DNA of 64,000 nt from Halobaculum magnesiiphilum (lineage in GTDB: Archaea; Halobacteriota; Halobacteria; Halobacteriales; Haloferacaceae), in assembly GCF_019823105.1 (NCBI RefSeq), contig NZ_CP081958.1, positions 434,001 to 498,000 on the forward strand, given 5' to 3'. The notes beneath the pieces are model-generated. The model was not told where the DNA came from. It ran no database searches and was given only the letters and a program-made list of their open reading frames with translations. The position numbers were made by a program, and so were the translations under genes. Shown here in pieces: positions 3,972-39,621 of this stretch; positions within the stretch are counted from its first letter, which is position 1; each line of letters starts with the position of its first letter.

Positions 3972-3997
3972 GAATCGGCGGGTATCTGTTGATGTAT

Positions 3998-4071
3998 CCG
4001 GGTTTAGCTCAGCCTGGTAGAGCAGCCGACTGTAGATCGGCTTGCCCCCCGTTCAAATCGGGGAACCCGGA
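3998..4071 (+). tRNA. tRNA-Tyr (GTA)
   Basis: A full cloverleaf of 74 bases: acceptor CCGGGTT pairs with AACCCGG, the discriminator base is A, the anticodon loop is CTGTAGA (anticodon GTA) on a GCCGA/TCGGC stem, and the T-arm is CCCCG/CGGGG. C1-G72 is the archaeal tyrosine identity pair. No intron and no encoded CCA. It is followed by an unusual repeat that copies its 3' portion. Confidence 0.96.
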
Positions 4072-4234
4072 CTTTCTGTCGCCGCCACGGCGAGGGAGCG
4101 GAGCGACCGAGCCGGCGGCGACGAAGCCGATCCGTGAACCGATTTGAAGAGACGAGTCGCAGTCCGGAACGGCGAGCGGAGCGAGCCGCATGCCCGAACC
4201 GTCTCGGCGTATTCAAATCGGGGAACCCGGACTT
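4072..4234 (+). repeat. Structured repeat ending in a copy of the tRNA-Tyr 3' part
   Basis: The 228 bases between tRNA-Tyr and the lipoprotein gene hold no gene. They contain, in order: a hairpin 4078-4122 (outer arms GTCGCCGC/GCGGCGAC, apical loop GAGCGGAGCGA at 4096-4106); an inverted T-loop sequence CCGATTTGAA at 4139-4148; a second hairpin with the same loop at 4174-4184 closed by CGGC/GCCG; and a direct copy (4212-4234) of tRNA positions 4052-4071 plus the next three bases. The inverted and direct T-loop sequences are complementary and close a large stem. The same order of parts occurs after tRNA-Glu. It could be a captured attachment site, a mini mobile element or a structured RNA. Confidence 0.85.
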
Positions 4235-4298
4235 CTGTTGCTGCCGTCGCTCCCGACCACGACCATATATAATCGTTTCCACGAGTTGTCGAGCCGAC

Positions 4299-5177
4299 AT
4301 GGTTCGTCACCGGTTGAAGGGGTGGGCTGTCGAACGCGAGAGCGTGAGCCGAGATCTCACGCGTCGCCGCGTCCTCGCGGGCGGCGCAACGGCCCTCCTG
4401 GCATCGATCGGCGGCTGCAGCGGCGCGACGCCGTTCGTCGGCAAGCGAACCGAGCGCGACGAGACGGTCGCCGTCGACGGAGCCGAACGGCTCGTCGCTC
4501 GAACCGACTTGGGCGACGTGACACTTCGTGCCGAAGCGCGCGACGACATCGGCGTGCGGATCACGAAGCAAGCCAGCAGCGTCACGGCGGACCTCTCGGA
4601 TCTCTCCTTCCGGGTCGAGCGGTCGGGGGGCGATCTCGTCCTCCGTTCGGAGTTCACCGGGGACACGGAGTTCTTCGGCGGCCGCCCGTCGATGTCGCTC
4701 GACGTGACGCTGCCCCGGTCGCTGCCAGTGTCGGCCGTCCGGAGTTCCGTCGGCGACATCTCCGTCGACGGCGTCGACGGCGACGTGGACGCCGAGACGG
4801 ACACCGGTGACGTCCGCCTCCGCGGCGTCTCAGGGTCGGTCCGGGCGGCGGCGTCGACCGGCGACGTGACGGTGGCCGATCCTGACGCGATCCGAGGCGC
4901 GCGGACCCAGACCGGCGACGTGACCGCCGATGTCCCCGACCTCGACGGCGACGTCCGGGTCGAGTCGCGAACCGGCGATGTCGCGGTCGCGGTCGGCGGG
5001 AACGTCGACGCCGACCTCCGGGTCGCCACCAGCACCGGCGACGTGTCGGTCGACGGGGTGTCGCTGTCGGAGGCGACCCGGACCGACGACCTCGTGACCG
5101 GCACGCTCGGCGACGGCGGCCCCTCCCTCGCCGTCGAGACCCGTACCGGCGACGCGTCGGTCTCCCCGCTGAACTGA
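4299..5177 (+). CDS. Tat-exported lipoprotein with DUF4097-like beta-repeat domain
   Basis: A 292-residue predicted cell-surface lipoprotein. The N-terminus has a twin-arginine signal (TRRRVLAGG), a short hydrophobic stretch and a lipobox ending in GGC, the usual haloarchaeal Tat-lipoprotein layout. The rest consists of regularly repeated strands with recurring TGDV turns (for example DTGDVRLRG, STGDVTVA, RTGDVAVA, STGDVSVDG), typical of the DUF4097 right-handed beta fold. The function is unknown; such proteins are usually adhesin-like or accessory to membrane sensors. TATATAAT at about 4265-4272 lies ~27-30 bases before ATG 4299, supporting a leaderless start. A GTG at 4344 would remove residues before the Tat motif. 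Confidence 0.8.
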   Translation: MVRHRLKGWAVERESVSRDLTRRRVLAGGATALLASIGGCSGATPFVGKRTERDETVAVDGAERLVARTDLGDVTLRAEARDDIGVRITKQASSVTADLSDLSFRVERSGGDLVLRSEFTGDTEFFGGRPSMSLDVTLPRSLPVSAVRSSVGDISVDGVDGDVDAETDTGDVRLRGVSGSVRAAASTGDVTVADPDAIRGARTQTGDVTADVPDLDGDVRVESRTGDVAVAVGGNVDADLRVATSTGDVSVDGVSLSEATRTDDLVTGTLGDGGPSLAVETRTGDASVSPLN

Positions 5178-17157: not shown

Positions 17158-17240
17158 CGCGCGCCGGCGGGCCTCCGTGCCCGCCGGGAGCGCGCGAGGG
17201 ATGAGCACCGCAACGCGAGCGGAGCGAGCGTGAGGAGCGC
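17158..17240 (+). repeat. Structured repeat, copy C (partial relative of copies A and B)
   Basis: First part of the 413-base gap between gatE and the glycosylase gene. A strong hairpin (GCGCGC 17159-17164 with 17190-17195; GGCGGG 17166-17171 with CCCGCC 17180-17185) precedes GAGCACCGCA. Then comes the GA-type hairpin ACGC-GAGCGGAGCGA-GCGT (loop 17217-17227) and GAGGAGCGC. The same order of short motifs recurs in copies A (17291) and B (34541), but this copy lacks their long terminal helix. Confidence 0.7.
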
Positions 17241-22413: not shown

Positions 22414-22488
22414 GCTCGGTTGGTGTAGTCCGGCCAATCATGTTGGCCTTTCGAGCCGACGACCAGGGTTCAAATCCCTGACCGAGCA
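22414..22488 (+). tRNA. tRNA-Glu (TTC)
   Basis: A cloverleaf of 75 bases: acceptor GCTCGGT/ACCGAGC, discriminator A, anticodon loop CTTTCGA (anticodon TTC) on TTGGC/GCCGA, T-arm AGGGTTCAAATCCCT. GATTAAC about 32 bases upstream is the likely TATA box. The 3' part from 22467 is copied exactly at 22588-22609. Confidence 0.95.
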
Positions 22489-22609
22489 TGGTTCTCGGAA
22501 CGGAGTGGAGAGAGCCACGCGCAGCGTCGGGATTTGAAGTAGACGGGACGCAGCGACCGAGCGGAGCGAGGTCGACCGTCCCGGTGTGGTTCAAATCCCT
22601 GACCGAGCA
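22489..22609 (+). repeat. Structured repeat ending in a copy of the tRNA-Glu 3' part
   Basis: Directly after the tRNA, in order: hairpin TCTC/GAGA (22493-22496 with 22510-22513) with a GGA-AC-GGA-GT-GGA apex; inverted T-loop GGGATTTGAA at 22529-22538; a hairpin with CGGGAC/GTCCCG (22544-22549 with 22578-22583) enclosing CGACC-GAGCGGAGCGA-GGTCG (loop 22559-22569); then an exact 22-base copy (22588-22609) of tRNA positions 22467-22488. TTCAAATCCC in the copy is complementary to the inverted block. The order of parts matches the region after tRNA-Tyr. Confidence 0.87.
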
Positions 22610-37614: not shown

Positions 37615-39621
37615 TCAGTCGTCCCGTTCCCCGTCGCGGTCCGATCGTCGGTCGGCGGCGTCATTGCCGCCCTCAGTTTCGTCCCCCTCGGTGTCTTTCC
37701 CCCCATCGCCGTCCTGGGTGTCGCTCTCCTCGTCGCCGGACCCCCGGCCGTTGGTCGCGACCGAGTCGGGTCCGTATGGCAATCCGTGGTCTGGCCCGAC
37801 GGCGTCCGTCGTCGCGTCCGAACCCGCGTCCGGACCGATATCCGAAGTCGCCTCCCCCTCGGTCGCGCCTCCCTCGGCGCGACGACGGCGGTCGTGCCGC
37901 ACGCGCCGGCGAGCCGCGAGGTCGTCCTCCAGCCTGTCGAGCAGTTCCTCGCGGAGCGCGTCGGCGTCCGCGGCGTCGAGGTCGTAGGCGATCGCGTCGC
38001 CGCCGAGCAGCCCCGAGGAGGACGCCGAGTCGCCGACGACGGACGCGAGGTTCCGTCTGCGCTGGAAGACGGTCCGGGAGACGAACACCGTCTGGAGCCG
38101 GAAGTACGGCACCAGCCGGGTGTGTCGACGCAGCACCCCGGTCCGGGTGACGAACCCGTCGCCGACGGTGGTGTGCCCGCGGTTCGCCCACGTCAGGTGC
38201 CCCGCGATCGGTGCCAGCGCGACGCCGACCAGCGGGAGCAGGGGGAGGGCCCCCGGGAGGTCGAACACGAGCCGGTCGACCCCGACCGCGAGGGCCGTCG
38301 CCACGAGCGCAGCGATCGCGTAGCGGGCGACGTACCGGCGTCTGGCGCGCGTCGGCGGGCGCGCGACCGTGTCGACGCCGAAGGCGTCGTCCGGGTCGTC
38401 AGGATCGTTCGGGCTGTTCGGGGCCTCCAGGTCGTCTACCTCCGCGTCGGCGTCCGTGCCCAGCTCCGCCCGCACGTCGTCGGCGAGCGCGACGACCCGA
38501 GACCGGGTGTCCAGCGGAACCGCCGTCTCGGCGCCGCCGTCGCCGCCGCCCCCACCCCCCGAACCCGGGGCGTACCCGGCCGTCTCGATCGCGAGGCTCG
38601 CGTAGCCGAGCCGGCGCATGACGGCGTTCTCTGAGACGGTGACCGTCTGGACCTTCGAGAGGGGGACCGTCCCGCTGTAACGGCCGAGGAGGCCGCGCTC
38701 GTAGCGGAGCTCGTCGCCGACGCGCTCCAGCCGGAACCCGTAGTAGCGGACGAACGTGAGCGCGGCACTGACGACCCACACGACCAGCAGGAAGCCGACT
38801 GCGCCGAGCAGACCCAGCGACAGCAGGTCGCCCGTCCCGAGCGAGGGCACGTCGCCGGGGCCGACCTCGACGTCGATGATCCCGTAGCGCACGAGCAGCC
38901 GGCCGCCGTCGAACAGCAGGTCGTCGAAGAGGCTCGCGCCGACGAACGGCGCGATCACCGCGCCGGGGCGGAACGACACCGCACACAGCGTCGCGAAGCG
39001 CCGCCCCGTGAGCTCGTACAGCGTCTCCGACTCGGCGGCGACCCCGCCCGACTCAGCGGAACCCGCGGATCCCGTCGCCGCGGTCGCACCGGCGGCGGTC
39101 GCCGACGGTCGCGTCCCGGCGCGTTCGGCCGTGGAGGCGTCGTCGGACGCCGACTCGCGGTCGTCGCGGGACTCGTCACCCCGGCCGCGGCGACCCAGTT
39201 CCGCCCGGAGCCGGTCGGCCTCGTCGCTCCCGACGGCGTCGAGGGTCGCCTCGGTGGCGCCGCCGCCGGCGGTCTCGACGGTCACGGTGGCGAGCCCGAG
39301 CGCCCGCTGGAGGATGCTGCGGCGCACGTCCACGTTCTGAACGCGGTGGAGGGGGATCTCCCGGTCCTGTCGGGAGACGACGCCGGATCTGACGACCAGC
39401 CGGTCGGACAGCACCTCGTACTCGAACCGGTACCAGCGGGCGAGCGCGGCGCCGGCGCCGACGAGGAACGCGGCCGGGACCGCGAGAAACGCCACCGGTC
39501 CGGGGCCGTCGCCGCCGCCCATCCCGGCGAAGGCGGTGCTCGCGAACAGCGCGAACAGCGCCAGCTGGCCGCCCGAGCGGAGCGCGCTGACGGCGGCAGA
39601 GGCGGGATGCAGTCGGGTCAT
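37615..39621 (-). CDS. Membrane protein with three bacterial PH (YdbT/bPH2) domains
   Basis: A 668-residue membrane protein. The repeated unit is a pair of membrane helices followed by a bPH2 domain with the 'RxG...R...L..VQ.V.V..S..QR..G.A...V.TAG' pattern. It is seen three times: RSGVVSRQDREIPLHRVQNV, RGLLGRYSGTVPLSKVQTV and RTGVLRRHTRLVPYFRLQTV. Asp/Ser-rich linkers separate the units and the C-terminal ~110 residues are an acidic disordered tail. The function is unknown; the Bacillus homologues YdbS/YdbT protect against peptide toxins. It overlaps the upstream gene by one base (TGATGA). Confidence 0.82.
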   Translation of the reverse strand: MTRLHPASAAVSALRSGGQLALFALFASTAFAGMGGGDGPGPVAFLAVPAAFLVGAGAALARWYRFEYEVLSDRLVVRSGVVSRQDREIPLHRVQNVDVRRSILQRALGLATVTVETAGGGATEATLDAVGSDEADRLRAELGRRGRGDESRDDRESASDDASTAERAGTRPSATAAGATAATGSAGSAESGGVAAESETLYELTGRRFATLCAVSFRPGAVIAPFVGASLFDDLLFDGGRLLVRYGIIDVEVGPGDVPSLGTGDLLSLGLLGAVGFLLVVWVVSAALTFVRYYGFRLERVGDELRYERGLLGRYSGTVPLSKVQTVTVSENAVMRRLGYASLAIETAGYAPGSGGGGGGDGGAETAVPLDTRSRVVALADDVRAELGTDADAEVDDLEAPNSPNDPDDPDDAFGVDTVARPPTRARRRYVARYAIAALVATALAVGVDRLVFDLPGALPLLPLVGVALAPIAGHLTWANRGHTTVGDGFVTRTGVLRRHTRLVPYFRLQTVFVSRTVFQRRRNLASVVGDSASSSGLLGGDAIAYDLDAADADALREELLDRLEDDLAARRRVRHDRRRRAEGGATEGEATSDIGPDAGSDATTDAVGPDHGLPYGPDSVATNGRGSGDEESDTQDGDGGKDTEGDETEGGNDAADRRSDRDGERDD

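Follow-up and report, generated by a model that had tools for sequence, protein, structure and literature searches.

In the genome of Halobaculum magnesiiphilum, the gene for tRNA-Tyr is followed by a second copy of its own 3' part, which raises the question of what kind of element sets the end of a tRNA behind that tRNA. We examined this locus in a 64,000-nt stretch of the genome (the window), where sequence comparison confirmed the repeat at the centre of the original prediction: positions 4052-4074 recur at 4212-4234 with 23 of 23 nucleotides identical, and no further site in the window resembles this 3' end at up to three mismatches, the chance expectation being none. The functional copy runs from T54 to the discriminator A73 (Table 1), the trailing CTT being an incidental match. 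The inverted T-loop block predicted between the two copies is also there, and its ten nucleotides (4139-4148) are an exact complement both of the copy (4212-4221) and of the host tRNA itself (4052-4061). Two hairpins with a GAGCGGAGCGA loop are present as predicted, at 4096-4106 and 4174-4184, but this loop is frequent: the GAGCGNAGCGA loop motif occurs five times in the window against 0.85 expected, and the paired GAGCGGAGCGA loops are a common motif and no signature of the Tyr locus. Hairpins of the GAGCGNAGCGA type were also seen outside tRNA tails, at 17217-17227 and 38305-38315.

For searches beyond this locus, a covariance model (R1) was built from 18 aligned cores, its training drawing partly on loci analysed here. 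R1 reads the Tyr unit on the tRNA strand (Table 1) and scores 15.5 bits on the opposite one. In the same window it also matches a second unit, behind tRNA-Glu, that was absent from the original prediction.

Table 1 Features of the two units and their host tRNA genes (positions in the window)
Feature	Positions	Strand	Remarks
Host tRNA-Tyr(GTA)	3998-4072	+	ARAGORN; Rfam RF00005 at 3998-4071, 62.1 bits
T54 of tRNA-Tyr	4052		
Discriminator A73 of tRNA-Tyr	4071		
Variable spacer with hairpin	4072-4138	+	Hairpin arms 4078-4086 / 4114-4122; identity among orthologous units only 0.41
Inverted T-arm (P1 5' strand), CCGATTTGAA	4139-4148	+	Complements T-loop/T-stem of host tRNA and copy
R1 match, conserved core and T-arm helix	4141-4223	+	97.8 bits, E 2.4e-23 (window)
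P2 5' strand, ACGAG-U-CG	4152-4159	+	Covarying NNN, invariant AG, U.U mismatch, CG
P3 hairpin	4163-4198	+	Apical CGGC-GAGCGGAGCGA-GCCG
P2 3' strand, CG-U-CUCGG	4200-4207	+	
tRNA-Tyr 3'-end copy, T54-A73	4212-4231	+	P1 3' strand is first 8-10 nt; exact repeat to 4234
Spacer remnant of a next unit, CTTCTGTTGCTGCCGTCGC	4234-4253	+	Equals spacer of unit 2 in sister genome G007
tRNA-Glu(TTC), host of second unit	22414-22488	+	ARAGORN
Second unit	22489-22609	+	R1 match 22531-22601, 53.4 bits, E 1.3e-11
Inverted T-arm of tRNA-Glu unit	22529-22538	+	
tRNA-Glu 3'-end copy	22588-22609	+	Exact, 22 nt

The units follow one order: a variable spacer, an inverted T-arm, a conserved mismatched hairpin as core (NNNAGUCGCAG...CGUCUNNN) and, last, the tRNA-end copy. 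This copy extends from host G53/T54 exactly to the discriminator N73, with 97% identity to the host at G53 and at least 90% at each position from T54 to N73, and past its discriminator identity falls to about 0.6 and then to 0.3-0.4. As positions past 65 lie outside R1, their conservation was not built in by the model. Copies are perfect in 99 of 156 cases, across 23 isoacceptors, and match their own tRNA at 94% identity as against 39% for another isoacceptor. The inverted arm is tuned in the same way, its complementarity to T-stem positions 62, 63 and 64 being 0.90, 0.74 and 0.53 for the own tRNA, compared with 0.29, 0.35 and 0.26 for other tRNAs.

Variants of this frame were also observed. 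At five loci (L192 at 1136-1450, behind the tRNA-Ser CGA of genome G000; L036, L050, L237 and L297) a second core type, in which AGGGAGUG...GGAACGACCG replaces AGUCGCAG...CGUCU, stands in a like frame that retains the inverted T-arm and the tRNA-end copy. The core of one unit in about 220 (L245, around 500-780) is inverted relative to tRNA-Glu and lies between inverted T-arms. Finally, two loci of the MAG Halobacteriales archaeon QS_4_69_31 (L322 and L325; the MAG of L244) carry the core directly inside tRNA-Asp, following its T-stem 5' strand or its base 10, with the 3' end coming from the copy alone; no intact tRNA-Asp was found in this MAG, and the two loci may represent an assembly error, a deletion or an intron-like case.

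Each unit folds into one long irregular hairpin made of three helices. P1 is a T-arm helix between the inverted T-arm and the T-loop part of the copy, followed by an asymmetric 2 nt / 3 nt loop. In P2, where NNNAG-U-CG pairs with CG-U-CUNNN, the NNN positions of NNNAG/CUNNN covary, a near-invariant U.U mismatch follows, and the G-C of the CG/CG part becomes A-U in some lineages by change on both sides; P3 is a variable GC-rich hairpin. Across 109 distinct sequences 94.7% of cells are paired, and double-change cells number 235 compared with 73.5 in shuffles (0/500), counts that are influenced by both the MAFFT and the CM-fitted alignment and that lean towards structure, since alignment A3 was fitted to R1. 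A smaller unfitted alignment gave covariation in agreement with the larger set, and pairing collapses in every slid register of the helices. Helix positions hold 65 G.U as against 17 A.C combinations, and folding is more stable for the sense than for the antisense strand (p=1.4e-4), which together show that it is the tRNA-sense strand that forms the structure. RNA fits this strand best, the alternative being folded single-stranded DNA of the same strand.

The presence of the element in relatives and at other tRNA genes, proposed in the original prediction as a check, was found on a wide scale. When relatives were searched with this locus as query, many genera proved to carry a like frame, frequently as tandem units, following their tRNAs for Tyr, Phe, Ser, Gly, Arg, Val and Asp. 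In the H. magnesiiphilum genome all 12 R1 matches (E<=1) lie downstream of a tRNA gene, on its strand and within about 300 bp, a zone that amounts to only about 0.2% of strand positions by the estimate for this genome, so that chance does not account for the placement. Among named species, whose loci were picked by a pattern containing TTCAAATC, so that only the H. magnesiiphilum census is free of selection, 87 of 97 non-edge matches fall within 600 bp behind a same-strand tRNA, representing 20 isoacceptors; carriers include Natrinema, Halorubrum, Haloarcula, Halosimplex and Halovivax. Most of the other ten matches either neighbour a degenerate tRNA or a tRNA fragment or are orphans. One orphan unit (L261, 593-802) is without an inverted arm, carries a tRNA 3'-end copy, by eye that of tRNA-Val, and lies, also by eye, just upstream of a putative tyrosine integrase gene. 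The retrieved loci, an enriched set, hold 204 distinct tRNA genes, of which 155 carry between one and five copies, the units forming tandem arrays of one to five with a median period of 145 bp, and the host tRNAs comprise at least 23 isoacceptors.

At the level of genomes, R1 matches were detected in 371 of 392 Halobacteriales, or about 95% (334 of 345 good genomes). A sample of the phylum gave matches in 51 of its 294 genomes, all of them Halobacteriales, and in none from any other order; in both searches the matches per genome were counted up to a cap. When 13 genomes, mostly match-free, were rescored with laxer filters, weak matches appeared in G001, a member of the same genus, and in several others; G014, G044 and the small genome G036 gave none even then. 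The units are dispensable, as several genomes of good quality (G001, G014, G044) carry weak remnants at most. Their recurrence at so many tRNAs and in so many genomes marks a widespread element and no one-off scar. Rfam covariance models gave no match to the unit in the window, and literature searches, in which subscription journals were partly covered, returned no description of a haloarchaeal tRNA-tail unit. A 14-mer scan of viral contigs produced 105 scattered matches, the chance level for so short a pattern, and was set aside. We think it probable that the units form an undescribed, haloarchaea-wide family of structured RNAs in the 3' tails of tRNA genes that are co-transcribed with the tRNA and released.

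We then considered how the units are inherited. Nine Tyr units from several genera, a set that includes one array whose unit 1 has a different core, have mean identities of 0.95 in the copy, 0.83 in the core, 0.41 in the spacer and 0.32 in the flank, the tRNA with 30 bp upstream reaching 0.87 at the nine loci; core and copy have thus been kept in place while their surroundings were lost. At the syntenic Tyr locus within the genus, there is no unit in G004, a spacer only in G005, one unit in G000, G003 and G010, one plus a truncated unit in G008, and two units in G007. The difference between G000 and G007 is a clean 137-bp block, one unit long, whose edges are the repeated inverted T-arm, so that arrays grow and shrink via recombination between units. 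Furthermore, nearest-neighbour cores of at least 0.9 similarity sit on the matching isoacceptor in 20 of 20 cases, with matching declining towards random at low similarity, in keeping with vertical inheritance in recent times and slow shuffling over long ones; no different-locus pair tested had cores of at least 0.93 similarity on different isoacceptors.

This history weakens the proposal, made in the original prediction, of a small mobile element able to pick up the ends of tRNAs. Such a selfish noncoding element would be inserted at tRNA 3' ends by an unrecognised recombinase or RNA-based machinery, duplicating those ends, and its fold would serve mobility, as a folded single strand, and not the host. 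An uneven distribution over tRNAs and species, arrays of one to five units, sister genomes that are apart by exactly one unit, genomes practically free of units and the orphan unit adjoining a putative tyrosine integrase are all as it would predict. However, recombination between repeated inverted T-arms accounts for the one-unit difference, the 20 of 20 isoacceptor matches speak for vertical inheritance, and cores have been retained at their sites between flanks that are randomised. In addition, plasmid and phage searches gave no match to the unit, and none of the eight neighbouring proteins tested has a recombinase or integrase domain. As the recent spread was vertical, active hopping is unlikely, and we regard this explanation as a whole as an unlikely one.

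Of the known systems compared, the closest in layout is RtT RNA (RF00391), the distal repeats of the E. coli tyrT/tyrV operon, in which tandem units likewise stand behind a tRNA, the copy of the mature 3' end comes last, and an inverted tRNA-end segment pairs with the copy. As a positive control, RF00391 identified three RtT units behind tyrV of E. coli K-12, with a period of 178 bp and scores of 134-137 bits; one other E. coli strain is without the tyrT repeats. Each K-12 unit comprises a spacer, an inverted GGGGAAGGAT, a core and a copy AATCCTTCCCCCACCACCA, the inverted segment pairing as GGGGAAGGAT/ATCCTTCCCC, and the annotated rttR ncRNA stops precisely with the final base of the copy's CCA. 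The haloarchaeal copy ends at the discriminator, the tRNA genes shown being without CCA, whereas the RtT copy reaches CCA, so that both end where the encoded tRNA ends. The haloarchaeal copy starts at G53/T54 and its P1 covers the T-loop, whereas the RtT copy starts in mid T-loop; the RtT core is unlike the haloarchaeal one in sequence and fold; and the haloarchaeal units, unlike RtT, occur at at least 23 isoacceptors in nearly all haloarchaea. RF00391 gave no match to positions 3980-4320 even at E<=10 and none in the window at its gathering score, and R1 did not detect RtT: the unit is RtT-like in layout, and the models give no sign of homology. RtT is reportedly released from tRNA transcripts, visible on Northern blots and also found beside other tRNAs in Pasteurellaceae (PMC4986893); in Salmonella it forms a 175-bp variable-number repeat (PMC2658671). 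A Salmonella indel table also contains a 220-bp variable-number repeat at tRNA-Gly beside the rtT RNA repeat (PMC2658671), possibly another RtT-like array.

If the haloarchaeal units are released tail RNAs, as we favour, the tRNA and its unit or units would be read as a single transcript, in which the T-loop of the copy, being paired in P1, would tie up the extra tRNA end. RNase Z-type cleavage at tRNA 3' ends would then free each unit as a small RNA that, like E. coli RtT RNA, ends in a mature tRNA 3' end, and that could act on, or compete for, proteins handling tRNA 3' ends or T-arms. Against this reading stand the dispensability of the units, the T-rich signals and the pairing and energy results given below, and the mutual failure of R1 and the RtT model to detect each other. 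The decoy or processing substrate for tRNA 3' enzymes that the original prediction raised from the sequence is a possible role. The t-elements of Haloferax volcanii are reportedly tRNA-like elements recognised by tRNase Z and would be comparable with the units as tRNA-related haloarchaeal RNA segments able to meet the 3'-processing machinery. They differ in that the unit's copy lacks 5' strands of its own for the T-stem and the acceptor, and neither ARAGORN nor the Rfam tRNA model scored the unit as a tRNA-like fold.

The unit could also work purely in cis, affecting how the tRNA transcript to which it belongs folds, is cleaved at its 3' end or terminates, and then be degraded, with no function in trans. 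The strictly same-strand placement behind tRNAs, the host-specific pairing, the copy as a competing acceptor strand and the filing of RtT by Rfam as Cis-reg all agree with such a tail, which we nevertheless consider improbable. Units stand at about 10 of the 50 tRNAs of the H. magnesiiphilum genome, and the roughly 40 without them argue that maturation does not depend on units. No selection is evident for pairing between the copy's acceptor part and the tRNA 5' strand, mismatches in the copy leaving it preserved in 25 cases against 24.5 expected, and a terminator signal is not clear, T-rich signals showing no clear shift away from the tRNA towards the last unit. Partition-function calculations put equilibrium pairing of the acceptor strand at 0.89 with the copy and at 0.08 with its own 3' end. 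Scrambling the inverted arm has little effect on this preference, and these energies lend little support to P1, or the inverted arm, as a protector of tRNA folding.

An attachment-site scar, left by an integrative element whose attB was the tRNA 3' end, is very improbable: a tRNA 3'-end copy is the expected leftover of integration, and haloarchaeal integrases use tRNA genes (PMC3119063), but a scar explains neither the inverted block and hairpins, as the original prediction had argued, nor the host specificity of the inverted T-arm, the conserved covarying core at 23 isoacceptors, the median periodicity of 145 bp or the conservation in place; the interval here is 160 bp with no integrase among the eight neighbouring proteins tested, the copy, at 0.95 identity against 0.32 in the flank, is no neutral leftover, and occurrence in 371 of 392 genomes, sharply bounded copies and covariation refute the scar as a full explanation. 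tRNA-targeting integrative elements, such as Haloquadratum DV11, likewise have a tRNA 3'-end copy downstream of an intact tRNA; the unit differs in its length of about 145 bp, in having no cargo or integrase, and in its additional inverted block and conserved core. The PATE and SMR elements of Haloquadratum are, like the units, short palindromic noncoding haloarchaeal elements, PATEs resembling IS605-type elements and SMR-A elements targeting PATEs, but identity with either was dropped, as in the accessible part of the source they are neither linked to tRNA 3' ends nor described as carrying copies of them (PMC3119063).

Beyond the released tail RNAs that we favour, we put forward more tentatively, as a possibility with the odds against it, that the units make up a genome-wide set of tail RNAs, each tuned to its tRNA, which once released would act as decoys or regulators in trans of the enzymes that cut, complete or modify the 3' end of that tRNA. 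If this is true, these tail RNAs and enterobacterial RtT would together constitute a general class of tRNA-tail regulatory RNAs in two domains of life. The tail of E. coli tyrT is no local curiosity, an equivalent frame existing in archaea at many tRNAs and tuned to each. About 95% of the sampled Halobacteriales carry the family adjoining much-studied genes, yet Rfam has no entry for it. The archaeal units make the function of RtT-like tails, long an open matter, testable by comparison, and in haloarchaea this could be done in organisms that are genetically tractable.
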